Part shown: positions 153 through 43,909 of the stretch, one piece after another
How positions within the stretch are numbered: position 1 is the first letter of the stretch
Layout: each line of letters begins with the position of its first letter
From: Neobacillus sp. FSL H8-0543
Lineage (GTDB): Bacteria; Bacillota; Bacilli; Bacillales; Cytobacillaceae
DNA: 64,000 bases
NCBI RefSeq assembly: GCF_038592905.1
Contig: NZ_CP151943.1
Span: forward strand, 3,670,501 to 3,734,500
Reading direction: 5' to 3'
Notes under the pieces: model-generated
Databases searched by the model: none
What the model was told of the DNA's origin: nothing
What the model saw: the letters and a program-made list of their open reading frames with translations, nothing else
Position numbers and translations under genes: made by a program

Positions 153-210
153 TTGTTGAACTAAATGGGTGCTTATGTTGAATAAGGAGATTACTGGGGG
201 CGATCCTCTA
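153..210 (+). repeat. Intergenic element copy, degenerate
   Basis: Left core GAACTAAATGGGTGC is followed by TTATGTTGAATAAGGAG. No clear right core. Confidence 0.6.
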
Positions 211-515
211 GACAATAAAAAACAGTCTCCGAAGGACTCTGCTTCATTTTCATAAGCCACGACTTCCTTTGTTTTTCCTCTTAATGGGAAGGAACCTCGC
301 TACGTAACTGAGTTTTCCTTTAAAATATAAATAATTTGAAGAAATACGTCCTTCATAAATATCATACTCGTTGCCGTTTTTTTGCTGTAATTACTATGAC
401 ATATAAATAGGCGTCCATTCAAATATTGCAGGTCTGATTTAACGGACATAAAATCTTTATCACTGCGGCATATTATATTTATCAAAGATATTTTAATGAA
501 TTGAGGTTTTTAAAA
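211..515. other. Gene-poor stretch
   Basis: About 300 bases without a convincing gene. A 61-codon reading frame exists on the minus strand but has no ribosome site or recognisable family. Confidence 0.5.
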
Positions 516-653
516 ATGGATGAAATGCGAACTACCAATCAAGTCGAAGAAGTTAATAAACACCTTAAAGAAATTCCCAAAGAAGCCGAAGAAAGAAGAA
601 TTGAAAATCAGCCTCAAACTGATAAAAACGAGAAAGCCATCGAGCCGTTTTAA
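516..653 (+). CDS. Small hydrophilic protein (45 aa)
   Basis: A highly charged peptide (MDEMRTTNQVEEVNKHL at the start, ending EKAIEPF), probably helical and rich in Glu and Lys. The upstream ribosome site is weak. It is followed by a clear intrinsic terminator. An overlapping frame in this DNA encodes nothing recognisable. Function unknown. Confidence 0.4.
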   Translation: MDEMRTTNQVEEVNKHLKEIPKEAEERRIENQPQTDKNEKAIEPF

Positions 654-706
654 TTTGAAAACGGCAAACCAAAGAATCTTGCTGACCACAAATTTCATTA
701 ACCATA

Positions 707-745
707 AAACAGGGCATAGAAATTTCCTATGCCCTGTTTTTATTT
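707..745 (+). terminator. Intrinsic terminator
   Basis: A 13-base stem AAACAGGGCATAG pairs with its complement across a six-base loop and is followed by TTTTTATTTATT. Confidence 0.8.
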
Positions 746-798
746 ATTGGATCTGTTAAAGAATGTAGTTTTTCTTCTCCATCTAAATTTAGTTACCT

Positions 799-860
799 TT
801 CAAAGGGGTGCTACGGCAGCCTTTTTTTATTGTACTAAAGGGTAGTTTAGGTCAAGAAGG
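799..860 (+). repeat. Intergenic element copy
   Basis: AAGGGGTGC and a GC-rich hairpin with a T-run are followed by right core ACTAAAGGGTAG-TTTAGGTCAAGAAGG. It marks the left edge of a duplicated DUF2750 unit. Confidence 0.75.
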
Positions 861-865
861 TATGG

Positions 866-946
866 GGCAAGCGGGGAACAGGTTATGATATGAAGCCAAA
901 AGTGGTTTTGGAACGTATTCAATATGAACTCAGTTTAATTGATTAA
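866..946 (+). pseudogene. DUF2750 C-terminal remnant (internal deletion)
   Basis: This stretch is almost identical to the last 80 bases of the intact DUF2750 gene ending at 11909, including the stop codon. The preceding GTATGGGGCA matches that gene's leader. About 350 bases between leader and C-terminus are missing, with GGCA at both edges of the gap, so a short-repeat deletion is likely. The following element is also shared. The unit is a dead duplicate. Confidence 0.85.
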
Positions 947-950
947 CCTT

Positions 951-1040
951 ATTCAACTAATAGGTGCAAGAGTTGAAAATCCCGCTGCCTTAATGGTGGC
1001 TTTTTCTTATTGAGCTAACGAGCAGTTTTGTTTAAGAACG
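951..1040 (+). repeat. Intergenic element copy
   Basis: ATTCAACTAATAGGTGC, a CCGCTGCC hairpin with T-run, then GAGCTAACGAGCAG. Identical to the copy at 11914 up to the right core, then divergent. Confidence 0.85.
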
Positions 1041-1211
1041 GGGATATATTTATTAGCCAATAAACAAATAAATCCATCCAAGAGGGATTCTCCAAGGATA
1101 GATTTATTTGTAATTCTAGCTATCTAAACATTCTTTAGTTGGCAGGATTCTTCTTCCAGTCACTTTTCTTTTACTAACAACTATCCCGCAGTGTCACTTC
1201 ATCTTAAACTC

Positions 1212-1751
1212 CTAATAATCTAATTGACGTAAATACAATAAGATTTCATTTTCATTTAGTTTTTTAAACTTATACTTACGAACTTGGCTTTCAATTTTCT
1301 TTTTGTCATCATCTTTACTACTGAATAAATCTACTAAGTGCAAAATTACTTCTGTCAACACAGTTACTAATCCACCTGACCATACTGCCCCAAATTCCCA
1401 ACCTAATGTTTCTGTATCAGAAAGTTGTGACTTCACTAATTCATCCATTTCTTTTTTGTATTCGCCTTTGATTAGAATATATTCTTCCTTATTTCTAAAG
1501 GCTAATAGTAAATCTTCAACATTATAAACTTCGAAATAAGCATTTTCCTTCTCTAATTGTATTAATTCATCTAGCACAGTTCCTTCACTTTTCTCTACTG
1601 TTTTCGCAATAGCTTGAATTGTTTTGACTGAATAATGATTGACACTTTTTTTATTAACACTTGAAAGCATTTGCTGACTGATTCCAGTTTCTTTAAATAC
1701 ATCGTATCGTTTTTTCCTGTTCTTTTGCAGATAAATATCTAATAGACTCAT
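1212..1751 (-). CDS. HTH-like protein with a central membrane segment (179 aa)
   Basis: The first 60 residues look like a Cro/C1-type helix-turn-helix (KRYDVFKETGISQQMLSSVN, then YSVKTIQAIAKTV). The middle contains one hydrophobic stretch (VWSGGLVTVLTEVILHLVDL, about residues 123-142), and the C-terminus is basic. Similar unnamed proteins occur in lactobacilli, enterococci and bacilli, to my recollection. It lies alone between two intergenic elements on the strand opposite to most neighbours. It could be a membrane-tethered regulator or part of a toxin-antitoxin-like module; neither is shown. Confidence 0.75.
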   Translation of the reverse strand: MSLLDIYLQKNRKKRYDVFKETGISQQMLSSVNKKSVNHYSVKTIQAIAKTVEKSEGTVLDELIQLEKENAYFEVYNVEDLLLAFRNKEEYILIKGEYKKEMDELVKSQLSDTETLGWEFGAVWSGGLVTVLTEVILHLVDLFSSKDDDKKKIESQVRKYKFKKLNENEILLYLRQLDY

Positions 1752-1897
1752 TTTAAAATTCTCCTTTCCCTATAATAAATTATTTTTTACTAAAAAATTT
1801 TTTTGCTTAATTATATTTTAGTATATGTGTAAAAAAATGTAAATTGTTATTTTATTTAATAATCAATTAATTTTATTTTTTCGTTGTATCACGTAAG

Positions 1898-2004
1898 TTT
1901 GTGAAAGTTTGCACTTAAACTAACGGGTGCAAGAGTTGAAGAATGGGGTTGCTGCGGCGATCCTTTTTGTTATTGAGCTAACGAAGCAGGTTAGTAAAAG
2001 AAGG
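1898..2004 (+). repeat. Intergenic element copy, full length
   Basis: GTGAAAGTTTGCACTTAAAC leads into TAACGGGTGC-AAGAGTTGAAGAA, hairpin GGGTTGCTGCGGCGATCC with T-run, then GAGCTAACGAAGCAGGTTAG. Confidence 0.9.
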
Positions 2005-2065
2005 TATATACGAGAAGAGTGATGAAATATATTAAAATAGATAATTGAATTGGGGGAGGAAATAA

Positions 2066-2503
2066 GTGAAAAAATTTATAATTATTGTAATTATATTATT
2101 GGTTGCTATTGGTATTATTGGTTGTTCAAAGAGTGAGGCTTATGGGTCAGAGGAAGCGATTAAAAGAGGCGATATTGTTTACCAAAATGAAGTTGTTAAC
2201 TTAGAAAGGTTTGAACAGTTCTTAATTAACATATCTAACAAGAAAGAAGACACTATACGAGTTACAGGCTATACTGACGAAGGAGACCCTATATTCCAAG
2301 ATTTACGTTTTGATGGGGAAGTCATTCATTACATATATGACAATTCAAATGATGAATATGCTGGAAAAGATAAAGGAAAAGAGACTGATGTTTGCAAAGA
2401 GGTAATTGGGAAAGAAAATATACAAGACGAAATCGAGTATTTAATAAGTGGTTGTTCCAAGAATCTTCAAAACTTTTTAATTAGTGTAGAGAAAAAACAT
2501 TAA
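2066..2503 (+). CDS. DUF4362 lipoprotein
   Basis: A 145-residue secreted lipoprotein. The GTG start follows a strong GGGGGAGGAAATAA site. A hydrophobic signal ends in lipobox IIGC with Cys20 as the lipid-anchored residue. The mature part matches the DUF4362 pattern I know from Bacillus: an A-I-x-x-G-D-I-V start, VTGYTDEGDPIFQDLRFDG, and a late paired-Cys region (DVCKE and SGCSKN). The protein should sit on the outer face of the membrane; its role is unknown. It is flanked by intergenic elements on both sides and is transcribed alone. Confidence 0.88.
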   Translation: MKKFIIIVIILLVAIGIIGCSKSEAYGSEEAIKRGDIVYQNEVVNLERFEQFLINISNKKEDTIRVTGYTDEGDPIFQDLRFDGEVIHYIYDNSNDEYAGKDKGKETDVCKEVIGKENIQDEIEYLISGCSKNLQNFLISVEKKH

Positions 2504-2530
2504 AGTAGATGTACGGGACTTTTAAATACA

Positions 2531-2610
2531 TTGTGAAATATTGTACTTAAACAAACGGGTGCGAGAATATAAGAAGCAACGCTGCTGCGTTGTTTCTTTA
2601 CTTAATAATG
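2531..2610 (+). repeat. Intergenic element copy
   Basis: TTGTGAAATATTGTACTTAA-ACAAACGGGTGC, then hairpin GCAACGCTGCTGCGTTGTTTC. The right core is degenerate. Confidence 0.8.
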
Positions 2611-2709
2611 TTGATAATCTTAAAAATTGAATGTAACCTTGTTAATCTGGGTTTCTCTGCTTTTGTTTAATTGTTAATAATCTTGTTTCCTCATAAGTAG
2701 GATTTATAT

Positions 2710-2901
2710 CTACCATATTTTTTTAAATAACTTAGTATATATTAATGAAAGTACAGCTTGTGAAATTAGAACTAATGATACAGTCAATGTCATTACATTA
2801 TGGTCAAATACAGCTAATATTGCCATAGTTATGCCAGTTAAGATAAAAAGAACACTTAGAAAAGGCGTTACTTTAATTAGTATTTTAAGTTTTTGGTTCA
2901 T
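2710..2901 (-). CDS. Small two-helix membrane protein (63 aa)
   Basis: MNQKLKILIKVTPFLSVLF begins the first hydrophobic helix and a second spans MTLTVSLVLISQAVLSLIY; the C-terminus is basic (KLFKKIW). AAAGGGGA lies before the ATG on this strand. It is one of many short membrane proteins bounded by intergenic elements. Function unknown. Confidence 0.65.
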   Translation of the reverse strand: MNQKLKILIKVTPFLSVLFILTGITMAILAVFDHNVMTLTVSLVLISQAVLSLIYTKLFKKIW

Positions 2902-3000
2902 AGAATCTATTCCCCTTTCGTATTTTAATTTGTTAATTTGATTTTATAATAATTATACAATGAATGTTAAAATTTTCTATTTTTTTATAATATTTTTTTG

Positions 3001-3090
3001 TGTTCAACATAAACGTGCTTTAATCTAGAAGGATAAGGCACCTGTATGTTGAATTCTTTATTGAACAAACAGGCAGGTTAGCTTAAGAAT
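3001..3090 (+). repeat. Intergenic element copy
   Basis: Degenerate left core TTCAACATAAACGTGCTTTA; right part TTGAACAAACAGGCAGGTTAG is clear. Confidence 0.75.
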
Positions 3091-3162
3091 AATAGTAAAT
3101 ACCCAAACACTTATGGTAAAGTAAGGATATGAATTCGGATGAATATTAAGGGAGGATGAGTA

Positions 3163-3708
3163 ATGACAAAGAAGAAAAATGAAACGTTTGAATGGGTTAA
3201 ATCGATTATGGGTGCACTTGTTATAGCATTTATTATTCGCTCTTTTTTCTTTACACCCATTGTTGTTGACGGTGAATCAATGAATCCCACTCTCCAGAAC
3301 AAGGACCGTATGGTTGTAACCAAAATTGGGGAACCGAAAAGATTTGATATTGTTGTGTTTCACGCACCAGACGGTAGGGATTACATAAAACGTGTAATCG
3401 GACTCCCAGGTGACAGTATTGAGTATAAGAATGATGTTTTATATATAAATGGGAAGGCATACAACGAACCTTATTTAGAAAAATATAAGAAAAGACTTAA
3501 TGATGAAACTTTAACATACTCTTTCACTTTAAAAGAGACCGCGGTAGGTAGTGATACTGTCCCTAAAGATAGTTTGTTTGTAATGGGAGATAACAGAAAG
3601 CATAGCAACGACAGCCGTGATATTGGAGCGATACCAATGGAAAAGGTAATAGGGACAACAAATGTTGTTTATTATCCAATAAAAGAAATTAAAATCGTAA
3701 ATAACTAA
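3163..3708 (+). CDS. lepB: Type I signal peptidase (SipS/LepB family)
   Basis: A 181-residue enzyme that removes signal peptides from exported proteins at the outer membrane face. One N-terminal membrane anchor (about residues 14-32) precedes the catalytic boxes: GESMNPT with nucleophile Ser39, and RDYIKRVIGLPGD with general base Lys76. FVMGDNRKHSNDSRDIG is the conserved GDNR box. Length and single anchor fit the Gram-positive SipS type. The ATG follows GGGAGGATGAGTA. The gene lies alone between intergenic elements with no substrate gene beside it, so it is probably an extra paralog rather than a dedicated peptidase. Confidence 0.95.
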   Translation: MTKKKNETFEWVKSIMGALVIAFIIRSFFFTPIVVDGESMNPTLQNKDRMVVTKIGEPKRFDIVVFHAPDGRDYIKRVIGLPGDSIEYKNDVLYINGKAYNEPYLEKYKKRLNDETLTYSFTLKETAVGSDTVPKDSLFVMGDNRKHSNDSRDIGAIPMEKVIGTTNVVYYPIKEIKIVNN

Positions 3709-3739
3709 TTGTTGCTTATGCATATTGTTGGACTGGTCT

Positions 3740-3830
3740 CTTCTTCAAAACCATAGGGTGCGTTGTCCAGGAAGGGCTAATCACCTTTTTTGTTGAATTC
3801 CTTATTTAACAAACGGGGCAGCATTCCTAT
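3740..3830 (+). repeat. Intergenic element copy
   Basis: TTCTTCAAAACCATAGGGTGC, an internal hairpin, then TTATTTAACAAACGGGGCAG. Confidence 0.8.
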
Positions 3831-3841
3831 ATTAAAGCTAA

Positions 3842-3890
3842 GATTGTGAAAAAATGTACCTAAACTAACGGGTAGCTTTAGTTGAAGAAG
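3842..3890 (+). repeat. Intergenic element, left half only
   Basis: GATTGTGAAAAAATGTACCT, AAACTAACGGGTAGC and TTTAGTTGAAGAAG, directly followed by a terminator. No right half. Confidence 0.85.
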
Positions 3891-3893
3891 CGA

Positions 3894-3921
3894 AAAGGAC
3901 CCAAAATGGTCCTTTTGTCTT
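3894..3921 (+). terminator. Intrinsic terminator
   Basis: AAAAGGACC pairs with GGTCCTTTT across CAAAAT and is followed by GTCTTTG. Confidence 0.65.
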
Positions 3922-3960
3922 TGATTAATAAAATTAAAATTTCATAATATAATCTTTATT

Positions 3961-4827
3961 CTATTGGTAGATTGTTACCCGTTCTTTATTCATATTATCA
4001 TAATAAGGTTCTAAGTATTGTTCGAAAGTTTGATAAGGGGTAGCCACTTGATTAATTTTTTCGATTAATTTGTTTCTAGCCCACAATTCCACTCCAAGCT
4101 CATTTGCAGCTATCCAAGCTGGCTCTGTAAAATAACTTGTAGTAATAACCATAGCTTTGGAACATTTATATAACTGTTTTCCTGTATAGACTTGCTGAAT
4201 TGCAGAGTTACTTAATTTATTTCGGGGTGTAATACGTTTACATTGAATTGCATATTTTCGAGAATTTTTCTGAGCTAAAATATCGACACCTTGATCCCCG
4301 GTCTTTTTAGTTATTTGTACGTTTTTGTAATCTAATTTTCTTAATAAGTTAGCAACATATTCTTCAAATTCAAAACCACTAAAGGAGTCTATAACTGAAA
4401 TATCTGCTACTTCTAATTGATATTCCTTAAATTTCTTGGTTTTAAATCTTTCTAGTTTTTCTTGGATACGTTTACGATTATTATCATATTCCTCTTTTAC
4501 TTCATCATAAGACTTTGTCAAAATCACAGTAAAATAATTAGAGACACCACTTATACCCCACATTAAGCATATTAAGAGAGGACACCAATACCACCATTTA
4601 TAAAAAAAATCTTGCCAAAAAAATAAACCGATTATGGCTGCTACTATGCAAATAATTCCGTACTTTAAATCTCTTTTCCTTGAATTCATAGCTATGTTAT
4701 GTCTTCGTTCTTCATCTTTCCATAATTCATCTAATTCACAATCTGGGCAATAAAATTCTATTATGTCTCCTATTTCAGACATTCGTTCTTGGCAACTTTT
4801 TTTATGTATTGTACAAACTCGAACCAT
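3961..4827 (-). CDS. Membrane-anchored Mrr-type endonuclease domain protein
   Basis: A 288-residue protein. The N-terminus has two Cys/His clusters (VCTIHKKSC, YCPDCELDEL) that look like a small zinc site. Two hydrophobic helices follow (about 57-72 and 81-103), then a charged helical linker. The C-terminal half is a restriction endonuclease-like Mrr_cat domain: SGFEFEEYVANLLRKLDY, TGDQGVDILAQ and YAIQCKR carry the E, D and QxK-type catalytic residues. Such proteins are assigned to DNA restriction or defence, but no methylase or partner is present. It sits alone between two intergenic elements. Confidence 0.82.
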   Translation of the reverse strand: MVRVCTIHKKSCQERMSEIGDIIEFYCPDCELDELWKDEERRHNIAMNSRKRDLKYGIICIVAAIIGLFFWQDFFYKWWYWCPLLICLMWGISGVSNYFTVILTKSYDEVKEEYDNNRKRIQEKLERFKTKKFKEYQLEVADISVIDSFSGFEFEEYVANLLRKLDYKNVQITKKTGDQGVDILAQKNSRKYAIQCKRITPRNKLSNSAIQQVYTGKQLYKCSKAMVITTSYFTEPAWIAANELGVELWARNKLIEKINQVATPYQTFEQYLEPYYDNMNKERVTIYQ

Positions 4828-4949
4828 TGGGTATCACCTTTCAACTATATATCTTTTAATATACCATTTTTTGGAGATGATAAGGTCCTTTTTGCCAATA
4901 TATGCAGGTTGTAACAAAATCAGTTAATAAAATAGGAATTTGGTTATAC

Positions 4950-5025: not shown

Positions 5026-5049
5026 TATGTATTCATAGATAAGCGTTTA

Positions 5050-9088: not shown

Positions 9089-9165
9089 GTTTGTGAAGAA
9101 ATGTACTTCAACTAACGGGTAGCAATAGTGAAAAGGGCAGCGTATATCCGTTGCCTTTCTCACTA
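9089..9165 (+). repeat. Intergenic element, left half, bounding the recombinase unit
   Basis: TTTGTGAAGAAATGTACTTC, AACTAACGGGTAGCAATAGTG, then hairpin GGCAGCGTATATCCGTTGCC. It adjoins the recombinase 3-prime end; a diverged equivalent stands beside the second copy. Confidence 0.88.
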
Positions 9166-9170: not shown

Positions 9171-10009
9171 TTAAAAATACTTTCTATAAAATTCTCTTCT
9201 AATGCTGCCACTTAACTGAGCATAAATCCTAGTGGTCTCGCTTTTTTCGTGCCCTAGTAGACTTTGAATAACATCAATCGGAGCTCCGTTGTTTAAAAGG
9301 TGGGTAGCATAGCTATGGCGTAGTTGATGTGGATGGATTTCTTTGTTGATCCCTGCTCGATTTGATATTCGCTTTATGATGTACCTCATCTGTCCAATAC
9401 TCATTCTATGTGGGTACCGTTCAGTAACAAAAATAGCGGGATCTTTATCCTGGCGAAGGTCTAAATATCGCTTGGGCCAGATTTCACACCGTATATTAAA
9501 GTAGACCTCTCTTTCCTTATCACCCTTCCCAAGCACAATTGCAGAACGATTGGACCAATTAATACGATTTTTATCAAGAGAAACAATTTCGCCTATTCTA
9601 CATCCTGTTGAAAACATAAATTCAAATAATCCTTTTCCAATGGAGTAAAACACGCTTCCCTCAAATGTTCAATTTCTCTCTCTGTCAAAAACTTTGGAAT
9701 CCGTTTTCCTTGTTTAGGTTCTTTGATTTTGGCAGTTGGATTTTTGGGTATATGCCCTTCCTCGTGGGACCAACGAAATATCGATTTAATGAATCGAATT
9801 CGGTGGGCCAAACTTGACGGCTTTAAGTGTTCACTGGATTTTGCTAAATACCTTTTCAGTTGATCTGTCGTTAATGATCCAATATCCACATCGCTAAAGT
9901 GTTGAATAAGTAGCTTAGATTGTAATCTATATGCTTTTAATGTCTGTGGAGAAAATCCTTCAATTCTTTTATCCGATTCATATAATTCCCAGGCTTTTGA
10001 TAATAACAA
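9171..10009 (-). pseudogene. Tyrosine recombinase (phage integrase family), frameshifted, copy 1
   Basis: Together the two frames encode about 280 residues of an XerC/D-sized tyrosine recombinase. The N-terminal SAM-like DNA-binding domain starts from TTG at 10009 behind AAGGAGGAGTTAT. The catalytic domain keeps TGCRIGEI (Arg), HPHQLRHSYATHLL (His-x-x-Arg), LLGHEKSETTRIYAQ (His and Tyr). The frame breaks near 9631-9640: GGAAAAGG here, where the second copy has GGAAAAAGC, a one-base deletion. Unless the sequence is wrong at this run, no full enzyme is made. The gene and flanks lie between element halves, and a second decayed copy is at 13126-13895. It lacks the long extra helix insertion expected of IntI. 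Confidence 0.9.
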
Positions 10010-10080
10010 AATAACTCCTCCTTATCGGTTATATTAGAGGAATTATTGCCTTGATTATAGAAATAGAAACATTTGGGTAT

Positions 10081-10114
10081 TGAAATAACGAAGCAGGTTA
10101 ATTCAAGAAGAACG
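10081..10114 (+). repeat. Intergenic element, right half
   Basis: TGAAATAACGAAGCAGGTTA followed by ATTCAAGAAGAA, closing the recombinase unit on its other side. Confidence 0.8.
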
Positions 10115-10159: not shown

Positions 10160-10233
10160 TAAATTTATTAAACAAACGGGTGCGGTTTTTCAATGGAGAT
10201 CGCTTTTCTTCTTTAAGTAACATTGCAGGTTAG
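10160..10233 (+). repeat. Intergenic element copy, interrupted by intron
   Basis: TTTATTAAACAAACGGGTGC, hairpin GGAGATCGCTTTTCTTC, then AAGTAACATTGCAGGTTAGT. The right arm stops where the group II intron begins. Confidence 0.85.
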
Positions 10234-11064
10234 TAAGAATCAAATGACGGGGTAACGCCCTGAAGGGTTCTCTCTTAGTCGAATAGCACTGGATTTGGAA
10301 AGAATGATAGTGTTATAAGCTCGGCGAAAAGGCGTAAAAATTTGCCGTAACAGGTTAAGCTGACGAAAGCCTACCCGATGGGGTGGCGTAAATCATGATG
10401 CTTGAGTAGAAAGAATATGGTGAGAATGCGAATAAACCTAAAAGAAATGGTTAAGCTGACGAACTTCTGAATGTACGGGTCTACACCTGCGACACATAGA
10501 AATGTGTATATCACCAAATTGTGAGGTTAGATGTGGATGAGTAAGACTAACTAATATGAAAATCCAAGATACGTTACAGGCGTATGAATGCTAACAGGAT
10601 TACAGGAAGCACCTAAGTTCATTCTATAATAGATATAATTCAACGTTGTAAGCTGATAACGTGGAGGGCTTACTCCCGAAGAAACGTTGACAAGGAAAGC
10701 AATTATGACATTAGTAATTGTATAACTTGTCTTTATATCAGTGAAAGTGGTGGCACAGTACCAATGAAAGGTCTAATCAGCCTGGAGGGATAGCCACTAG
10801 ACCAAGGAAGAATCATTTAATCATGCAAGGCAAATCTTTATCGGTTAATAAGGTTCTTGTGAGACTAATAGAGGTTCACCTCCTACGGGAGGCACCGACT
10901 TATTAAAACGGAGGAATTGGGACATGGATGGGGCTACGAATTCAGAAGTGTTGATGATTAAATCAAATTGGATTAGTTGGAACGCCGTATGAGATGAAAG
11001 TCTCATGTACGGTGTGAACAGGGAGAAAAGGGAGCGATAATCTCAAACCCTTACCTATCTATAT
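10234..11064 (+). mobile_element. Group II intron without reverse transcriptase (bacterial class B-like)
   Basis: About 830 bases of structured RNA sequence. The domain V hairpin at about 10980-11018 is AACGCCGTATGAGATGAAAG followed by TCTCATGTACGGTGTGAA, and a domain VI-like stem with GGGAGCGATAATCTC ends at ACCTATCTAT near 11062. The domain I region (GGTGAGAATGCGAATAAACC, AAAAGAAATGGTTAAGCTGA) resembles class B introns of bacilli. Around 10800-10830 GGAAGAATCATTTAATCATG resembles the usual start of the intron protein, but only about 20 codons follow before a stop; the protein is missing. The 5-prime GTGCG end is not obvious, so that boundary is approximate. Splicing would need a protein in trans. 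Confidence 0.82.
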
Positions 11065-13125: not shown

Positions 13126-13895
13126 TTGTGGTTTCGCTTTTTTCGTGCCCAAGTAAACTTTGAATAACATCAATGGGAGCTCCGTTGTTCAATAGGTATG
13201 TGGCGTAGTTGTTGTGGATGGATTTCTTTGTTGATCGCTGCACGACTTGATATTCGTTTTATGATGTACCTTATCTGTGCAATACTCATTTTGTGTGGCT
13301 GCCTTTCGGTAACAAAAATAGCTGGGTCTTTATCCTGGCGAAGGTCTAAGTATCGTTTGAGCCAGATTTCACACCGTATATTAAAATAGACCTCCCTTTC
13401 TTTATCTCCCTTTCCAAGGACAACATCAGAACGATTTGACCAATTAATACAATTCTTTTCAAGAGAAACAATTTCACCTATTCTACAACCTGTTTAAAAC
13501 ATAAATTCGAATAATGCTTTTTCCATTGGAGTAAAACAGGCTTCCCTCAAATGTTCAATTTCTTTTTCCGTTAGGAATTTTGGAATCCGTATTCCTTGTT
13601 TAGATTCTTTGATTTTCACAGCTGTATTTTTGGGTATATTACCTTCCTCGTGTGACTAACGAAATATCGATTTAATGAATCGAATTCGATGAGATAAACT
13701 TGATGGCTATAGGTGTTCACTGGATTTTGCTAAGTATTCCTTCAACTGTTCAGTCGTCACAGATTCAATATTCACATCATTAATGTGTTGGATAAGTAGC
13801 TTAGATTGGAGCCTATACGCTTTTAATGTCTGAGGAGAGAATCCTTCAATCCTTTTATCGGATTCATAAAGTTCCTAGGCTTTTGATAATAACAA
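13126..13895 (-). pseudogene. Tyrosine recombinase, decayed copy 2
   Basis: DNA similar throughout to 9230-10009. It lacks the last codons of copy 1 (including the catalytic Tyr region) and has several in-frame stops, for example TTTTAAACA where copy 1 reads TTTTCAACA, and TAG replacing the Trp codon at the seventh position. It keeps the frame at the site where copy 1 is shifted (GGAAAAAGC). Both promoter-side flanks share the same AT-rich stretch up to a right core. A dead paralog from an older duplication. Confidence 0.88.
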
Positions 13896-23412: not shown

Positions 23413-23734
23413 AGAGCGGCAAATCCATTGCTCTTTTATGTTGCATTTGACCCATTATACGCAAACTTTAGAGGGCTGAAAAACAGAAAAAAGAAAAAAA
23501 GACCACTCCTTTAACAGAGTAGTCAAAGTCCCATAATAAGCTGACAGAGGCTTTCTCTAAGAGTTTATGGTGTATGACAATTTAAAAGAACCACCATTAT
23601 TTGACATATCTATCAATTAACTCAAACTCCGGAAAAAATAAGACTAGTTTTTATAAACTAGTCTCAAATAATAAGGCGTATATTCCTCTTTGTTCAATTT
23701 CATAGTTGATCGACCTTCCTCATCCAGCCGTAGA
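23413..23734. other. Gene-free stretch
   Basis: No gene seen. A perfect hairpin GACTAGTTTTTATAAACTAG-TC lies at about 23641-23663. Confidence 0.45.
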
Positions 23735-23816
23735 ATCAGTATTGACGGTTCTGAACCATCTTCATTCTCTGTGGTGAAGCGCTGATTTTTGCGCTTCATG
23801 GATGGATAACGGGTGC
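23735..23816 (+). repeat. Second intergenic repeat family, copy 1
   Basis: ATCAGTATTGAC, TTCATTCTCTGTGGTG, hairpin GAAGCGC-tgattttt-GCGCTTC, ATGGATGG, then TAACGGGTGC. It shares order and sequence with 32164-32245, where the hairpin stem differs but pairing is kept. Confidence 0.7.
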
Positions 23817-23889: not shown

Positions 23890-24374
23890 CAAGTGCTGAT
23901 TTAAAGTAAAAAAATTTCCCCCAAAAAGGGCTTAGCCTATTGGGAATTAACATGAACGGATGCATATGATAGGGTTAGCCGAAGCACCATAGCCGCTTAA
24001 CCTCCCTTGCACATACACCTTAAAAGGAATTCTCAAATACAAAAAAGTGTAATTGGTTTTTCTTAGAAACAGATAACTGCTCCAACGATGATTAACAAGA
24101 TAAATAATACAACGATTAATGCAAAACAACCGCCACCGAAACCGACGCCGCCGTAGCAGTATCCACCACAACCACCAAATCCGTCGTATCCACCATATCC
24201 AAACATTAGATAGCCCTCCTTTATATACATATTCCTTATAAAATATGCTGAGAAATTAAGGTGGGAAGGGCTATTTCCCTAGTTTTTATGAGGACAAAAC
24301 TAGGGAATATGATTAAAGCAGTAAATAGTGAGCCGAGCGCTGCTGAAAAATGCCTAATTTTTTTATTCAAGTAA
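23890..24374 (+). repeat. Duplicated YjcZ-containing block, copy 1
   Basis: About 480 bases nearly identical to 61397-61915, from CAAGTGCTGAT through the YjcZ gene to the left arm TTATTCAAGTAA of an intergenic element, where identity ends. This copy lacks about 34 bases holding the terminator hairpin present in the other copy. Confidence 0.85.
24063..24206 (-). CDS. YjcZ family sporulation peptide (47 aa)
   Basis: MFGYGGYDGFGGCGGYCYGG is a Gly/Tyr/Cys-rich head, and CFALIVVLFILLIIVGAVIC a single membrane helix. AAGGAGGGCTATCTA precedes the ATG. It differs from the 61604 copy at a few head positions (Asp8 and Cys17 here, Gly there). Confidence 0.88.
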   Translation of the reverse strand: MFGYGGYDGFGGCGGYCYGGVGFGGGCFALIVVLFILLIIVGAVICF

Positions 24375-25056: not shown

Positions 25057-25162
25057 TATTGTGAAATATTGCACTTAAGTTAAAGGGTGCGTTGATCCAA
25101 GAAGGATTAACGCTTCTTTATGTTGAACTTATTGAACTAAAGTCGCAGGTTTGTTCAGCAAA
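25057..25162 (+). repeat. Intergenic element copy, full length
   Basis: TATTGTGAAATATTGCACTT, AAGTTAAAGGGTGCGTTGATC, hairpin, then TTATTGAACTAAAGTCGCAG-GTTTGTTCAGC. Confidence 0.85.
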
Positions 25163-25220
25163 TCTTAATGAATAGTGTACAATAAATAATAACGAACGTA
25201 TGTTTTTTAGGGGGAGAAAA

Positions 25221-25745
25221 ATGAAGAAAGCACTACTGGTTATAGACGTTCAAAATGGAATGTTTCAAGAAGGTAATGTCGTCTTTAAAGGGGAAAGAAT
25301 GCTACAAAATTTAAAAGATTTAATCGTACAAGCACGCTCTACTAAGACACCTATTTTTTATATACAGCATAACGCACCCGCTGGTAAACCTTTAGAGTAT
25401 GGGACAAAGGGGTGGGAGATTCATCCTGAAATAACTCCAAAAAATCAGGATGTAATCATTCAAAAAGCAACTCCTGATTCATTTTATAATACTTCTTTAG
25501 ATGAAGAACTGAAAAAACAAGGGATTGACCATTTGGTTATTGCAGGAATTCAAACAGAAGCGTGTGTGGATACAACTTGCAGAAGGGCTTTTAGTATGGA
25601 ATATAAGGTCACTTTAGTTTCAGATACACACAGCACTTGGGATTCACAGGACATTACTGCCCAACAAATTATTAACCATCACAACGAAGTATTACGTTGG
25701 TTTGCCGCTGTTTACCCAAGTAAAGATATTACATTCGATAGCTGA
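25221..25745 (+). CDS. Isochorismatase-like cysteine hydrolase
   Basis: A 174-residue hydrolase of the isochorismatase/nicotinamidase fold. ALLVIDVQNGMF supplies the catalytic Asp, VIIQKATPDSFYNT the Lys, and IAGIQTEACVDTTCRRAF the nucleophilic Cys. ATG at 25221 follows AGGGGGAGAAAA; an in-frame ATG at 25200 would contain that site. Substrate unknown (an amide or ether of a small acid). Flanked by intergenic elements. Confidence 0.92.
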   Translation: MKKALLVIDVQNGMFQEGNVVFKGERMLQNLKDLIVQARSTKTPIFYIQHNAPAGKPLEYGTKGWEIHPEITPKNQDVIIQKATPDSFYNTSLDEELKKQGIDHLVIAGIQTEACVDTTCRRAFSMEYKVTLVSDTHSTWDSQDITAQQIINHHNEVLRWFAAVYPSKDITFDS

Positions 25746-25845
25746 TTGTGAAATTATGTGCTTAAACTAACGGGTGCAAGAGTGTTATTACGGGGTTGCT
25801 GCGGCAACCTCTTTTCTTATTGAACGGGGCAGTTTAGTTGAAGTA
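25745..25845 (+). repeat. Intergenic element copy, full length
   Basis: GATTGTGAAATTATGTGCTT, AAACTAACGGGTGC-AAGAGTG, hairpin GGGTTGCTGCGGCAACCTC with T-run, then TTATTGAACGGGGCAG and TTTAGTTGAAGTAG (four bases lost in the core). Confidence 0.92.
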
Positions 25846-31377: not shown

Positions 31378-31417
31378 TTTTTCTTCTTCAACTAAAGGTG
31401 CTGGTTAGTTGAAGAAA
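31378..31417 (+). repeat. Isolated core site, near-perfect palindrome
   Basis: TTCTTCAACTAA, spacer AGGTGCTGG, TTAGTTGAAGAA: 12-base arms are exact inverted repeats. The clearest example of the core that other elements contain twice. Confidence 0.92.
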
Positions 31418-32010: not shown

Positions 32011-32163
32011 AAATCTAATATGCTAATTTTACTACCATGAAAATAAGTTTCTTCAACATTAGAAAAATGACAATACTTAAGAAGACCCTGCTCAATCGTT
32101 AAAAAAAGAGGAGAGTGGTAATTAAAAAGTCTATGGATTAGGGTTGACTGGATTAAGGTCAGT

Positions 32164-32245
32164 ATCAGTATTGACACTTCCTAACCATTTTCATTCTCTG
32201 TGGTGCAGTACTGATTTTGGCTGCATGGATGGCTAACGGGGTGCG
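32164..32245 (+). repeat. Second intergenic repeat family, copy 2
   Basis: ATCAGTATTGAC, TTCATTCTCTGTGGTG, hairpin GCAGTactgattttgGCTGC, ATGGATGG, TAACGGGGTGC. See copy at 23735. Confidence 0.72.
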
Positions 32246-33421: not shown

Positions 33422-35160
33422 AAAGAGTTCAGATCATTACGGCTCCGTGAAGGCATAGTGAAATAAAGGAGTTAAATGAAACTCCATATTTTACCATGTG
33501 ATGTACATTCTCCACGCCGCCCCTGGAGGCTTTCCCTCCCATGTCTCAACGGGTCATTTGCCCTATCATTCCTTCGTCATGCCTATCCAAGGGGGGGAGG
33601 CCAGTTATGCTAAAGTGATGGGTCAATGCCCTTTTGTTCAATAAATCTGGTACTCCGTACATATTTGAAATCCTGCGAATAAGCCAACATTCGATAAGTG
33701 TAAAACTATTAATCACACTTTATTATTATGATTATTGAAGTTTACCCTTTCGGGGAAACTAGTGAGTTTTTCTAAGAATCTATTAGTTCTTATGCTGCTA
33801 AGGAAGTTAAGGGTTGTAATCTTTCTGGGCAATAGGATTCATTTAGTTTGGCTATTCCTACAAATATTCGAGCCAGTTTACCAACCAATTTCATAATTGA
33901 TTTCATCTTCTTGATATTTTTTACCTTTACATTTAATGTGTGAATAGCTTTAAACTCAGGGTTGTTCATGACAAGGCTCATCGTCGCTAAGTAGATGAAA
34001 CGCCGCAGTCTAGATCTTCCCCGTTTAGAAATGACAATTTGACCTTTCCACTTTCCCAAACTTGCCTCAGCTAGGTGCAATCCTGCATGACGTAGTAAAG
34101 AATTGCCGTGGGCAAAGCCACTTAAATCTCCAGCTTCTCCTAAAATACCAGCCAATGAAATTTCACTAATTCCTTTAATGGTAAGCAAATGATTGGCATA
34201 AGGAATTTGTTTAAGTACTTCTGTTACTTGTTCTTCAACTCTTTCGAGTTGTGTTGTTGCGAGGTCATATTCCTCTAGTAATTGTTGTAGATGAAATTTA
34301 TAAGCATCAAGTGCCTGCCTAGTACCAATCGAATGTTTGGCTAAATGTATAAGTAATTGGGCTTTTCTTAATCCAGGCTGTCTCTTCATCAGTGACTTCC
34401 ACCCGTTAACAACGTTTTGAGGTTGCATTGAACGCAATTCCATCGGGGTAGGAAATAAGCGAAGGGTTGCGATTGCCCCTTTACCTTTCACGTCTTTAAA
34501 CACTTGTCGGAGCTCTGGAAAGACAACAACTACCCAACGATTTAATTGGTTGATTGAACTAACTAGACGCTTAACAATCACGTCACGGTTAGACATAAGA
34601 ACTCGAAGTTCTTCAAATGATTCAGAAGTTGGACGAACGATGGAATAGTAACCATTCTTCACCATATCAGCAATAACTAGTGCATCATTTTTATCGCTTT
34701 TTGACTGGGTATTATCTCGATTCTCTTTGTTCCTTTTTACATGGTACGGATTTACGGTTACTACATCAATATTCTGTTCGAAAAGCCATTTTGATAGATT
34801 AATCCAGTAACGTCCCGGTTCCATGCCGACTATAGTTGTATCTAAGTTATTGGTCCTTTTAAGTTTGTTAATCCAGTTTAATAAAATAGTAAATCCCTCA
34901 TGTTATTTTCAAATGTGATAGGATCGCCGACAATAATTCCACGGAAATTTACAGCACGAGCGACATGAAATTGTTGAGCAATGTCCACACCAACAACAAG
35001 GTGTTTATCGGAAATTCTTTCTATTAGTTGATTTTGTTTATCTTGCATTTTAAACTTCATAGTAGGGGTTCCTCCTAAGATTTTGAGTTAGAGTGGTGTC
35101 TATACTCATATCTTACTGAGGAGCTCCTTTTTAATCAAAGTCAATAATTAACTCACTACA
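33370..35160 (-). mobile_element. IS110-family insertion sequence, approximate limits
   Basis: The limits are set by loss of similarity to DUF2750 on the left and by reappearance of an element right core (GCTAAAGAAGCAGTTTAG) at 35164 on the right. About 420 bases downstream of the transposase and 100 upstream are noncoding; IS110 relatives carry a guide (bridge/seek) RNA in such noncoding ends, and the longer 33430-33789 part is the candidate. I found no terminal inverted repeats, as expected for this family. Confidence 0.75.
33790..35060 (-). pseudogene. IS110-family transposase, frameshifted
   Basis: The N-terminus (HLVVGVDIAQQFHVARAVNF) is the start of the RuvC-like DEDD domain. The frame ends at TAA near 34878; restoring one G in the GGG at 34895-34897 would read MRGFTILLNWINKL and continue into GMEPGRYWINLSKWLFEQ. 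The second frame holds the rest of DEDD_Tnp_IS110 (SDKNDALVIADM) and the C-terminal transposase domain (IKGISEISLAGILGEAGDLS, HAGLHLAEASLGKWKGQI, KRGRSRLRRFIYLATM) with its Ser. One base loss makes it inactive unless rescued. ATG follows AGGAGGAACCCC. Confidence 0.92.
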
Positions 35161-38925: not shown

Positions 38926-38984
38926 GAAAAAATACTGTAAAAAAACCAAAAAGAAGTATTGGATAATCTCCATTCAGTTCGACT

Positions 38985-39085: not shown

Positions 39086-39157
39086 AATTTGACGATGTGT
39101 CGTATGAATTTATATTGAAAATATATTCATTCATTAAAAATGAAAGGAAAATGCTAT

Positions 39158-39772: not shown

Positions 39773-39816
39773 GAATGATTTTCCGCTAGATGATAGAGCG
39801 AAAAGGAGGGAGAGTT

Positions 39817-40080
39817 CTGGCCTAGAATAAATGAACAATATGAAGCAATGAGAACGGCAACTAAAAACAAAATTCATACTGCTTCAATTAAACTATTTGC
39901 AAAAAAAGGTTTTGCTGCAACTAGTGTTCAGGATATTGCAGACACTGCAGGAATCAGTACTAGACTCTTGTACCCTCATTATAAAACCAATATGATTTGT
40001 TTAATGAAGTTGTTTCATATGCCGCAGCAGGATTAGAAAAAAACGTTGAAACGTTTAAAAACGATTCGTCTCCAGTTTAA
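39817..40080 (+). pseudogene. TetR family regulator, broken
   Basis: AAAAGGAGGGAGAGTT precedes CTG where ATG is expected, and one extra C follows. The HTH then reads KNKIHTASIKLFAKKGFAAT, SVQDIADTAGISTRLLYPHY; a shift near 39990 leads to DLFNEVVSYAAAGLEKNVET and TAA. The ligand domain is absent. Start loss, two shifts and truncation make it nonfunctional. Confidence 0.85.
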
Positions 40081-40115
40081 ATGATTCGCAGATGGTTATA
40101 TAACCTCCTAAATCC

Positions 40116-40160
40116 CTGTTTTTTTATTCAATTAAAAGGGGCCTTAGTGGAATAAGGAGC
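40116..40160 (+). repeat. Intergenic element, left half
   Basis: TTTTATTCAATTAAAAGGGG-CCTTAGTGGAATAAGGAG. Confidence 0.6.
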
Positions 40161-40208
40161 ATTAAAATAATCAAACTTTTTTATAAAAAAATCATACCTA
40201 GTTATAAA

Positions 40209-40254
40209 AGAAACTCCATTATGATCAATCTTTTTTCAAAATGGAGTTTTTCTA
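40209..40254 (+). terminator. Intrinsic terminator-like hairpin
   Basis: AAACTCCATT pairs with AATGGAGTTTTT across an 18-base loop. Confidence 0.6.
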
Positions 40255-40317
40255 TTTGTTGTTAAATAAAGGTTGAAGAGAACTTTTAATCAGTCTTTTT
40301 TATAACGCTACAGCCTT

Positions 40318-40471
40318 TTTTGTTATTCCACAAACGGGGCAGCATTCCTGTAATGAATGAAAGTAATGGTTTCTTATTTCATAAGGAAGATCATCTTTGT
40401 GAAAGAATGTACTTAAACTATCGGGTGCTTTCCTTAAAGATCTGGCTGCAAAAATAGCAGCCTTTTTCTTA
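40318..40471 (+). repeat. Two adjacent intergenic element halves
   Basis: First TTATTCCACAAACGGGGCAG (right core), then TTTGTGAAAGAATGTACTTA, AACTATCGGGTGC and hairpin TGGCTGCAAAAATAGCAGCC with T-run (left half). Confidence 0.82.
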
Positions 40472-40481
40472 TGCTTGGAAT

Positions 40482-40607
40482 TTAATGATTTTTTAGATAA
40501 GTCTCTTGCACTCCTCTGTTTTGTTGCAACAACAAGACTAATCTACAAACCAGTATTTTCTTCTTGGTTTTCTTCTCCGATGCTTTTCTTTTTATATTAT
40601 ACGACAT
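40482..40607 (-). CDS. Possible basic peptide (41 aa)
   Basis: MSYNIKRKASEKKTKKKILV and onward, behind TGTGAGGTGTGAAT on the minus strand. Highly basic; no family recognised. The ribosome site is its only support. Confidence 0.3.
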   Translation of the reverse strand: MSYNIKRKASEKKTKKKILVCRLVLLLQQNRGVQETYLKNH

Positions 40608-40985
40608 ATTCACACCTCACAAAAAGGGAGTACTTAAAATTAGTTCCCCATTCTTCATCTAATTCTTTTTAATAACAATCAAAATGTCACTTCATCAAAT
40701 AGAAAGCTCAGCCATCAAAGTAGGTACTTTAGATCTGTACTTTTACTTCCTAAACTTTCGAGAAGTTTGCCTTAATCTATTTATAGAACCAATGACATAA
40801 GACAATATAGTTAATTCGTATTTATATCTTTATTTTTGTCCGTTTTTGTCTAAATGTGTCAGAATTTTATGCTGAATGCAGGATTGCTGGAAAGCATTTA
40901 TATGACAATATGACTAAATCAAAGCACATGTTCAGATTGTGATAAAAATGATAAAATTCCTATAGTACTGTATGGAGGTGGAGAT
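40608..40985. other. Gene-free stretch
   Basis: I see no gene, repeat core or terminator in this 378-base AT-rich stretch. Confidence 0.5.
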
Positions 40986-41627
40986 TTGTCGATTAATATT
41001 TATCAAATTCATATTAAAACTGACAAGATGGATGAAATTAAGGATTTTTTAGTTAATTGGCTTGAGGATAAATATGGTTATCAACCTGAACTTCAATTAA
41101 ATCAGGATTCCTTCTTCCCATTCTTTGAAAATGAAGTTCCGACACATTTTGCTTTAAGTGTATTGTATGAAGATTGGATATCTATCCTTCATGATTCCTA
41201 TGACCAGCTTATTGATTTAACTTCCAGACTGTCTGCTACTTTCAATACGTTAGTCATCAATGCAATAGGTCAAAGTACAGTAGATACATATAATTTAAAT
41301 ATTTTTCAAGATGGAGATTTAATACGTAAAATAGACTGTGGTGAAGGTTATTTAGGTATCGAACAATACGGTGAACCACTCCCTTTTGAGAAGTCCCCAA
41401 TTGGTAGAAAGTCTGTTTTAGAAGACGAAGACTCCGATTTTTTTGACAATAAAGATATGCAAGAGTATTGCCTTCATTTTAATATCGATATCTTAATTGA
41501 TCCTTCCGTAAAAGATGGGTCATGGAAAGTCATAAAAATACAGAAAGAACCAGAACTCACAAGACCTCCCCATAAATTGTCTTTTATTAATAAAATCCTC
41601 CTTCATGATAAAAAGAAAAGGAATTAG
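40986..41627 (+). CDS. Uncharacterised soluble protein (213 aa)
   Basis: TTG start behind ATGGAGGTGGAGAT. An N-terminal SINIYQIHIKTDKMDEIKDF and HFALSVLYEDWISILHDS part is followed by acidic EDEDSDFFDNKDMQEYC and a basic tail LLHDKKKRN. No signal or membrane segment. Resembles contact-system immunity-type orphans in style only; no family recognised. Confidence 0.7.
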   Translation: MSINIYQIHIKTDKMDEIKDFLVNWLEDKYGYQPELQLNQDSFFPFFENEVPTHFALSVLYEDWISILHDSYDQLIDLTSRLSATFNTLVINAIGQSTVDTYNLNIFQDGDLIRKIDCGEGYLGIEQYGEPLPFEKSPIGRKSVLEDEDSDFFDNKDMQEYCLHFNIDILIDPSVKDGSWKVIKIQKEPELTRPPHKLSFINKILLHDKKKRN

Positions 41628-41649
41628 AGATAACGAAATCGATTAATTT

Positions 41650-41750
41650 GATTGTGAAGTTTTGTACTTAAACGGGGTGCAAGAGTTCAATATCTAAGCT
41701 GTCATTATGGCTGCTTTTCTTTTTGTACAACGGTGAAGGATAGTTAAAGT
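41650..41750 (+). repeat. Intergenic element copy, full length
   Basis: GATTGTGAAGTTTTGTACTT, AAACGGGGTGCAAGAGTTC, hairpin AGCTGTCATTATGGCTGCT with T-run, then TTGTACAACGGTGAAGGATA. Confidence 0.85.
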
Positions 41751-41864
41751 TGCAACGTTTTAAGAACTCATTTAAGCTTCGCGTAAATCTGTCCTAATAG
41801 GGCAAAATATGTTACGGGATTGTGCTGGAAAGCACATGCCTATTTTAAATAAGGAGTGAGATGA

Positions 41865-42074
41865 GTGGCTGATAAAAACCAACGCAATCGTATCGATAAT
41901 GATGCTGGCGAGGCAGTAGGAACTGGTGTAGGTGCTTTTACTGGGGATACCATGGCTTCTGCTCTTGATCCATTTGGTACTGTTGCAGGTGCTGTTGTTG
42001 GCAGAGCGCTGGACAATAAGGTCGGCGAAGGTGCCGATGAGACAAATGACAGTGTTACGAACCGAGAAGATTAG
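41865..42074 (+). CDS. Small glycine-zipper protein (69 aa)
   Basis: GTG start behind AAGGAGTGAGATGA. DAGEAVGTGVGAFTGDTMAS and FGTVAGAVVGRALDNK are a Gly/Ala-rich hairpin between polar ends. Related in layout to the protein at 30260. Function unknown. Confidence 0.72.
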   Translation: MADKNQRNRIDNDAGEAVGTGVGAFTGDTMASALDPFGTVAGAVVGRALDNKVGEGADETNDSVTNRED

Positions 42075-42177
42075 CCTTTAACCAAAATGAGGTACTGAAT
42101 GCATTGGATTCCTCAAAAGGGAGTCCTTTTATTTTTATTAAGTTAATTCAGCTTTTTTTAGGTAAATTTCCAGTAAG

Positions 42178-42263
42178 ATTGTGAATCAATTCACTTAAAG
42201 TAACGGGGGCTTTACTTTAACAAGGGTTAAGCCTTTTTTGTTGTTCCACTAACGGTCAGGATA
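42178..42263 (+). repeat. Intergenic element copy
   Basis: ATTGTGAATCAATTCACTTA, AAGTAACGGGGGCTTTACTT, hairpin, then TTGTTCCACTAACGGTCAGG. Confidence 0.88.
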
Positions 42264-42398
42264 TCTGACGAGGGATGCCCCCGTAAAGTACGAACATCCC
42301 TTTTAATAAAAAATACGGATGGTACCATTTGGATATTATGATAGCCATATAGATAATGTGTCGTAGGATGATTGAGAGTTCAAGTTTTTAAGTCAGCT

Positions 42399-42896
42399 CT
42401 ATTTTCTTTTTGAAATTTTAAATAATTTATGGATGATCGTACTTGTAAAAGAACCTAAAACTGCACTTCCTGCAATATCAGAGGGATAATGTTGTCCTAC
42501 CCAAATTCGTGACAATCCCGTTAAAACCGAGAACCCCAACAGAATAGATCCCACGATGCGTTGATAAAAGAGGACTATTGTTGAAACGGCAAAAGTTAGT
42601 AAAGTATGTTTACTCGGAAAGGAAGAATCGAATTTAGAGGGGGTAAGTATACGTACTCTCCTATCTATAAATGGACGTGGCTTAAAATAAAATAACTTAG
42701 TTATAAAATGCATGAATAATGTAATCACGATAGACACTACTGCTTCAAAAAATACATTCCTTTTTCTAAAAAGCAGAAACACTAAAATAAAAAAGAAAAC
42801 AAATTTGATCTTGTTGGAGGTAAGTATCATTAATTTATCGATAACCAAATAACGTCCAGAAAGTAAATTTATTACACGAAATAGTTTGACATCCAA
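42399..42896 (-). CDS. PAP2 superfamily phosphatase (BcrC-like)
   Basis: A 165-residue membrane phosphatase. The three PAP2 motifs are KLFYFKPRPF, SFPSKHTLLTF and SRIWVGQHYPSDIAGSAV, with four or five helices. Such proteins dephosphorylate undecaprenyl pyrophosphate or lipid phosphates. TTG start two bases after the upstream hydrolase stop, with GGGGTGAATAAGC as ribosome site: translationally coupled pair. Confidence 0.92.
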   Translation of the reverse strand: MDVKLFRVINLLSGRYLVIDKLMILTSNKIKFVFFFILVFLLFRKRNVFFEAVVSIVITLFMHFITKLFYFKPRPFIDRRVRILTPSKFDSSFPSKHTLLTFAVSTIVLFYQRIVGSILLGFSVLTGLSRIWVGQHYPSDIAGSAVLGSFTSTIIHKLFKISKRK

Positions 42897-42898
42897 GC

Positions 42899-43687
42899 TT
42901 ATTCACCCCGTTTACTAGAATGTTTCTCAATAAATTGATAAATAACTTTATTCAATTCACTTGCTGCTTTTGTTGGGAGCTGATGTTTAATGCCTTCAAC
43001 AAAGGTTATTTCGTTTTGAGGAAGTTTACTATGTAATTGTTGTGCATAACGAAAAAATGGTTTATCCTTTTCGCCATATATGAGGGAAATAGGCATATTG
43101 ATTTTTTCAAGTTGATTCGAACTGTTATAGTCCAAACTGTAATCATAATATTGCAAGATGTTCCTTGCATCTCCTTTTTTTGCTTCTAGTAACATCTTCT
43201 CGAATAACTCTTCTGTATCTGAATTGCTTTTTGATATTGACCAAGCCAAAGCAGGCAATGCCCCAATTTTTACAAGGTTTTTAGCAAGAAGTATTCTGTT
43301 TTTTAGGCGCCAGTCACTAACCTCAGACATTCCACTAATAATGATTCCACCTAAAATACGCCCCGTTGATGTTGATAACAAAAATTCCAATAGGATAGAT
43401 GCCCCTGCTGAATAGCCACATAAAAAGGCTTGTTTAATGTCCAGATGGTTCATTAGTTTTTTTATATCCTCTGCAATGAGTGGATAAGTAACGGGTTTGA
43501 TTGAAAAAGGACTCCTTCCATGTCCACGTATATCAAAGGTAATGACCTGAAAATAACTGGATAGTTCTTCTTCCTGATATATGAAGTTTGTGGAAGTTAG
43601 AACAGGCGGATGAATAAAAATGATAGGAATCCCTTTTCCTTTTACAGAGTAGTAAAGGCTACTTTCATCAACTTCGAGGATTGGCAT
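42899..43687 (-). CDS. Alpha/beta hydrolase
   Basis: A 262-residue hydrolase. IIFIHPPVL is the oxyanion HGxP-like loop, FLCGYSAGASILLEF the nucleophile elbow with Ser in GYSAG, ISLIYGEKDKPF the Asp strand, and GIKHQLPTKA the His. ATG behind TTGAGGTGATATA. First gene of a pair with the PAP2 phosphatase. Substrate unknown. Confidence 0.92.
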   Translation of the reverse strand: MPILEVDESSLYYSVKGKGIPIIFIHPPVLTSTNFIYQEEELSSYFQVITFDIRGHGRSPFSIKPVTYPLIAEDIKKLMNHLDIKQAFLCGYSAGASILLEFLLSTSTGRILGGIIISGMSEVSDWRLKNRILLAKNLVKIGALPALAWSISKSNSDTEELFEKMLLEAKKGDARNILQYYDYSLDYNSSNQLEKINMPISLIYGEKDKPFFRYAQQLHSKLPQNEITFVEGIKHQLPTKAASELNKVIYQFIEKHSSKRGE

Positions 43688-43861
43688 TATATCACCTCAA
43701 TAAATAAAACCGTACTTTCATTTATTATTTGACATTTTTGTTGAATCATACAAAAAAGCTTGGTCTCCCTAACTTTTTTACAACTCAAATTCCCACCCAT
43801 CCCTTAGAATGTTATATGTTCCTTGTTAGAAAGCTCGCTCCTTTCCGAAATTGGTAAGAAA

Positions 43862-43909
43862 GATTGTGAAACATTCTACTTAAAGTAACGGGGTGCGTTA
43901 GTTAAGAGG
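43862..43909 (+). repeat. Intergenic element, left half (last before the core block)
   Basis: GATTGTGAAACATTCTACTT, AAAGTAACGGGGTGCGTTAG, TTAAGAGG. No further copy was noticed until 61.9 kb. Confidence 0.82.

Follow-up and report, generated by a model that had tools for sequence, protein, structure and literature searches.

The closest described systems are integrons and the dif, or pdif, modules of Acinetobacter. In the latter, gene modules lie between short two-arm Xer-type sites (XerC/XerD) and are shuffled there, and such modules also occur on chromosomes (PMC12907356). The pdif sites are described as alternating in inverted orientation, with unlike XerC and XerD arms, a 6-bp spacer and host enzymes (PMC13141974). 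Complete integrons are extremely rare in Firmicutes, where IntegronFinder 2.0 reports a single one, in Limnochorda pilosa, along with a few clusters of attC sites lacking integrases (CALINs) (PMC9024848). Here we analyse an array of a short palindromic site, the core, in Neobacillus sp. FSL H8-0543. The window, meaning the whole stretch of 64 kb that was analysed, comprises bases 3670501-3734500 of a one-contig chromosome of 5,295,870 bases, and coordinates below are those of the window. The array is likely a set of gene modules that site-specific recombination at this one core has assembled and rearranged, carried out by a linked Xer-like tyrosine recombinase. Our best reading is a Bacillales cassette system, carried by soil relatives of Bacillus and integron-like in its working; its cores are simple and lie in direct repeat, and it has an Xer-like integrase of its own, which is in turn one of the modules. 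We found no such system in Bacillales in the literature searched, preprints and most subscription papers being outside the search.

Scanned with a core profile trained on its own sequence, the window contains 81 cores of at least 13 bits, 78 of them on the + strand, against a mean of 1.1 per 64 kb in ten first-order Markov simulations of the window. An IUPAC pattern of the core, allowing up to two mismatches, matches 40 times where 4.7 matches are expected, a count reached in 0 of 100 shuffles; the null models differ, the pattern count being set against shuffles and the profile count against Markov simulations. The main array (150-43911, +) accounts for 78 cores, 75 of them on the + strand, some paired around a hairpin as double elements (L core, then hairpin, then R core) and others standing singly, with unrelated genes between them. 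The repeated element noticed between unrelated genes in the original prediction, made from the sequence of the window, is thereby confirmed, and its leader, its T-run hairpin and the unrelated gene contents were found as stated on reading the sequence and the gene annotation. When + cores 35-85 bases apart are joined, the window yields 25 double elements and 28 single cores, so that more than one third of its 78 + cores are single. Genes in the window encode an amidase, a signal peptidase, a glyoxalase, an isochorismatase, GNATs, a LysE exporter, an MFS transporter and a LysR regulator. The array runs on leftward past the window edge, with three more cores in locus L075. Across the 5.3-Mb chromosome, AACTAACGGGTGC occurs 25 times with at most one mismatch, mostly in few clusters, and the reversed pattern twice. 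Cores are thus clustered in a few arrays and do not stand next to every gene, as they might if they were repeats scattered beside all core genes.

Each core consists of inverted arms, best TTCTTCAACTAA and TTAGTTGAAGAA, flanking an asymmetric spacer of 8-9 bases. The arms, AACTAA and TTAGTT, extend to as many as 12 bases; left and right arms are alike, and neither the 6-bp spacer nor the unlike XerC and XerD arms of pdif sites are seen. The exact palindrome named in the original prediction is real; its inverted arms of 12 bases enclose a 9-base spacer, and it lies at 31384-31416 (+), not at 31381-31413. For the wider comparisons, 18 of 119 loci were removed as duplicates, leaving 101, and each locus was turned to its majority strand. 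In this set, the L core mostly has a spacer of the CGGGTGC type (CGGGTGCN, 8 bases in 262 of 339 double elements) and the R core one of the CGGGGCAG type (CGGGGCAGK, 9 bases in 223 of the 339); both types occur among single cores. A leader of the form TTGTGAA...ACTTAA frequently stands ahead of the L core in our reading of the sequences, and the element at 1899-2004 (+) is an example of the full form: leader, L core, GC-rich T-run hairpin and R core. On a strict terminator test, 122 of 339 hairpins pass on the core strand and five on the other strand, compared with three of 750 random control windows; the hairpins thus look like directional transcription terminators. Orientation is nearly uniform, with 1445 of 1487 cores on the majority strand of their locus, and module ends formed by inverted sites are not seen.

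The array carries its own recombinase gene. A frameshifted Xer-like integrase gene lies at 9171-10009 (-), recognised from Pfam matches and a translation containing stops; one open reading frame (ORF; 9593-10009) encodes the N-terminal part and another (9171-9653) the catalytic part, and together they match Pfam Phage_integrase with 126 bits and a SAM-like N domain. The protein scores below every NCBIfam cut-off, the nearest model giving 212.6 bits against a cut-off of 220, and aligns to XerD over residues 19-272. Three proteins score 95.5, 93.0 and 89.5 bits with TIGR02249 (IntI), for which the cut-off is 265. As judged by these scores, the array-linked recombinase is Xer-like and not IntI. 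A leader and L core lie on the 3' side of the gene (9091-9135, +), the integrase unit beginning in the spacer of this core, and an R core stands upstream of the integrase start (10074-10111, +), with the unit ending in its spacer. A second, more decayed copy of the catalytic part is found at about 13127-13580 (-) (L011 and L012). The original prediction mentions neither copy, nor the leftward continuation of the cores, nor the small second group of cores described below.

Relatives of this integrase were encoded by 389 stretches in named genomes, the best 80 of which gave 78 loci. They come largely from Neobacillus and other Bacillales, spanning Neobacillus, Peribacillus, Cytobacillus, Mesobacillus, Litchfieldia, Jeotgalibacillus, Psychrobacillus, Sporosarcina, Virgibacillus and others; the labels Paenibacillus and Chryseobacterium among them look doubtful. 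The reading frame is unbroken across the match in 72 of the 78. In all 78 loci most cores lie on the strand opposite to the integrase (1129 of 1161 cores in all). In a separate count, 636 cores lay 3' of the integrase and 693 lay 5' of it, which places it mid-array and not at an array end by an attI. Among the alignments listed, similarity of the integrase unit is confined to the interval from the L-core spacer past its 3' end through the R-core spacer, which lies some 60-75 bases ahead of the start codon, and neighbours beyond these spacers are unrelated between loci. Bounded in this way by the spacers of an L and an R core, the integrase occupies the place that the hairpin holds in an ordinary element. 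Within 140 nucleotides of the gene, 56 of 76 loci have a core of at least 14 bits on the 5' side and 61 of 74 have one on the 3' side; 48 of 78 have one on both sides. The order L core, integrase, R core is the usual layout, not the sole one. At eight other tyrosine-recombinase loci in the genome of the window, no more than one core lies within about 1.5 kb, compared with five for a family copy at 2.04 Mb.

When 30 integrase sequences (L083-L160) were aligned over the 90 bases upstream of the start codon, a strongly conserved motif, approximately GKCAATAATTCCT, was seen ahead of the ribosome site. It could pair with that site, and the consensus fold is weak; the motif may be a control signal for the integrase. 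A hairpin masking the ribosome site was considered and set aside, having five pairs and a weak -1.5 kcal/mol.

Evidence for exchange comes from an all-versus-all comparison of the 101 loci and their 1487 cores. From 656 alignments (at least 85% identity over at least 200 bp), 211 were free of integrase overlap, and 101 remained after close tandem repeats and non-array segments were removed. These 101 homologous segments in array context, in 60 families, start at a core in both copies in 37 cases and in one copy in 19, with two continued alignments; for segment ends the counts are 34, 23 and two. Across 300 within-array shifts of the cores, the control gives a mean of 0.07 starts (maximum 1) and 0.06 ends (maximum 2). 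In pairs at least 90% identical (28 starts, 22 ends), identity switches inside the core spacer of about 8 bases, from about 0.1-0.55 past the core to about 0.7-1.0 within the module. The genes too, and not the elements alone, therefore change at cores. Such changes at clustered cores support the original prediction for Firmicutes of a mobile cassette system that is of the tyrosine-recombinase type and follows an integron-like array logic.

Counted by family (n=26 each), starts fall at R or Ri cores in 18, at L in two and at single cores alone in five, while ends fall at L or Li cores in 18, at R in four and at single cores alone in four. Since starts favour R and ends favour L, gene units mostly span R to L and leave the hairpin behind. 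The hairpin and the integrase gene are separate L-to-R modules. In the window, the R-core-to-L-core module at 1004-1930 is 99% identical to one in Neobacillus novalis (L086) with different flanks. The isochorismatase module (25128-25770, +), likewise R core to L core, has a 95-96% copy elsewhere in this genome, in the array at 2.04 Mb (L065), and the module at 3065-3809, containing the signal peptidase S26 gene (3163-3708, +), is shared at 94-95% with Bacillus sp. cl95.

Eight larger shared blocks were examined as well, and cores stand at both ends in five, at one end in two and at neither end in one, an 11-kb block of 91% identity. Blocks with cores at both ends include those of N. niacini and Mesobacillus maritimus (6.2 kb, 99.2% identical), N. 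novalis and N. soli (1.8 kb including the integrase, 99.1%), and Paucisalibacillus and Gracilibacillus (6.25 kb, 99.7%). The Peribacillus loiseleuriae and FJAT-29882 block and the Gracilibacillus and Virgibacillus block have a core at one end only. One gene module adjoins the integrase in N. niacini and M. maritimus and is placed elsewhere in the arrays of Virgibacillus and Gracilibacillus.

The mechanism that we propose draws on the site geometry, the uniform orientation, the switch points in spacers, the core-bounded blocks common to genera and the linkage of the integrase, all of them features read from sequence. A dedicated Xer-like tyrosine recombinase, encoded within the array opposite to the core strand, would recombine two directly repeated cores, acting on double-stranded rather than folded single-stranded DNA. 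The DNA between the two cores would be released as a circle, and the circle would be inserted at another core in the same orientation. Modules would be of three kinds: genes, short terminator-like hairpins and the integrase gene itself.

Several observations weigh against this mechanism. The spacers of L and R cores are unlike, and strict tyrosine recombinases usually want equal spacers. No core is found near 43 of 101 segment starts or 42 of 101 ends in either copy, perhaps through decay, weak cores or partial homology. Comparison of colinear relatives, in line with the check for gain or loss of one gene plus one element that the original prediction proposed, gave no clean single-module case: among 13 candidate gaps, none was clearly core-to-core in both copies. 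The three family copies found in the genome of the window (two in the window, the third at 2.04 Mb) are all broken, so this array may be fossil, or another enzyme may serve it. In several members of the genus (e.g. G018, G019, G020 and G038), 44-48 cores were scored but no close full-length integrase was seen; in such genomes another enzyme could act, or arrays may outlive the integrase.

A true integron mechanism, in which the double element would act as a single attC-like site, recombining in folded single-stranded form, and the cassette would be a gene plus its element, is unlikely on these data. It would fit the integron-like array logic, the gene orientation (the longest ATG ORF lies on the core strand in 556 modules and on the opposite strand in 122) and the orientation of the integrase, and the outer and inner arms of an element can indeed pair, because each core is palindromic. 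Set against this, swap units end mostly at L and not at R, some single cores serve as swap points (in five start and four end families), the integrase is not IntI, and it sits mid-array. Arms of one element also lack the covariation to be expected of a folded attC-like site (outer z 1.6, inner z -1.6), in a test that weak selection could escape. The boundary classes and the absence of arm covariation do not support the whole-element attC model, and the original prediction is not upheld where it took the entire two-core element for an attC-like site travelling with its gene. Slightly less probable again is that host XerC/XerD or another recombinase uses the cores and that the linked integrase is a mere passenger module. 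This would account for arrays in genomes without a close full-length integrase and for an integrase unit that is itself bounded by cores. It is countered by the consistent position of the integrase family amid cores and on the opposite strand in 78 of 78 loci, which the other tyrosine recombinases of the genome do not share.

Two further explanations we regard as very improbable. Terminator repeats of the repetitive extragenic palindrome (REP) or miniature inverted-repeat transposable element (MITE) type could spread alone while neighbouring genes changed for other reasons, as the terminator-like hairpins of many elements and one small core group outside the main array might suggest; gene homology nevertheless breaks at the core spacer far above chance, and the cores are clustered and co-oriented. 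Homologous recombination between repeats would be helped by many co-oriented copies of one family. The cores are short and imperfect, however, and the switches sit in the spacer, not anywhere along the arms, which makes this route less likely. Recombination at the cores by the linked Xer-like integrase remains the explanation that we favour.

Cargo was surveyed in core-to-core stretches of 250-2500 bp without an integrase, the modules to which the ORF orientations above refer; 90 of them have no ATG ORF of at least 60 amino acids. A sample of 120 of the 540 ORFs matched 98 Pfam families at E<=1e-4; in the 25 of these 98 families that were listed, GNAT acetyltransferases count six, DUF3231 five, DinB three and SUKH three. 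Defence or phage content is slight (25 of 41 families listed). Two cargo matches are to reverse transcriptases and may be group II introns.

Among 150 genomes from the same order or nearer groups, 142 have core matches at E<=0.1, and at the different limit of E<=0.01 six of 119 genomes drawn from the phylum have them, the own genome being included in both scans. The order-level core counts saturate, because about 45 candidates were scored per genome. Two of these six, of the same class and both from another single family (G215 and G171), have 25 and 10 core matches, and the system may reach beyond the order. The position of the array is not conserved: at the array site in six relatives, 20-40 kb examined in each past the shared genes contained two single cores and no run of cores, and none of 12 window proteins matched there at E<=1e-8. 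Integrase relatives of at least 60% identity are present on seven plasmid records. One plasmid, pSP10-266k of Sporosarcina psychrophila, carries merR, merA and a NUDIX gene between R-type and L-type cores (L161, 4102-6838), and it also carries the integrase. Phages were rejected as a vehicle, all 19 integrase matches in phage records being below 60% identity.

Other features of the window include a second small group of three cores (61902-62486, +), identified with the core profile and flanking an annotated SUKH-family gene (62002-62394). A 334-bp duplicate, 97% identical, is present at 24043-24374 and 61583-61916, with a core at the end of both copies. A repeated segment of about 215 bp (32026-32241 and 23700-23815), with GGATGGCTAACGGG at its end by a core, recurs in arrays L059, L083, L093, L097 and L159. 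An IS110-family transposase gene lies in the array at 33790-34824 and has 93-94% copies in other arrays. An Rfam scan of the window returned two group II intron matches and thiamine pyrophosphate (TPP) and cyclic di-GMP-I (c-di-GMP-I) riboswitches, and nothing further. The TPP riboswitch is at 57965-58072 (+), and the c-di-GMP-I riboswitch is at 40699-40781 (-), near the right end of the array. Both intron matches belong to a group II intron at an R core (10218-11064), similar copies of which are found in the arrays of N. novalis (L086), L053 and L111. Group IIC introns target attC sites, and the position of this intron is reminiscent of them.

If the proposed system is real, it would be an independent case of cassette evolution in a Gram-positive order, with another recombinase and another site. 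It would also constitute a reservoir of small accessory genes and a likely route of exchange between genera, and it could supply a simple new recombination tool in which gene and terminator parts are separate modules.

Compared with known systems, the cores resemble REP and MITE intergenic repeats in being short, repeated, hairpin-forming and intergenic, and differ from them in being clustered and co-oriented, with genes switching at them. The array integrase shares homology across most of the protein with XerA, XerC and XerD (NF040815, TIGR02224 and TIGR02225), yet falls below their cut-offs and is tied to arrays. As with pdif modules, gene modules are bounded by short two-arm sites and shuffled at them, whereas the sites here are direct repeats with like arms, a spacer of 8-9 bases and a linked integrase. 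The likeness to integrons lies in arrays of unrelated, mostly co-oriented genes split by a palindromic site, in a tyrosine recombinase on the strand opposite to the sites, and in the existence of arrays without an integrase. In contrast to integrons, the integrase here is Xer-like and not IntI, the sites are simple cores with two spacer types, the hairpin stays when the gene travels, and the integrase lies mid-array, bounded by cores. The system thus works like an integron but departs from one in integrase family, in the gene-plus-site unit and in the place of the integrase. Probably it represents a third way of capturing genes, next to integrons and dif modules and widespread throughout Bacillales, in which an integrase cassette shuffles genes, terminators and itself and blocks move between genera and onto plasmids.

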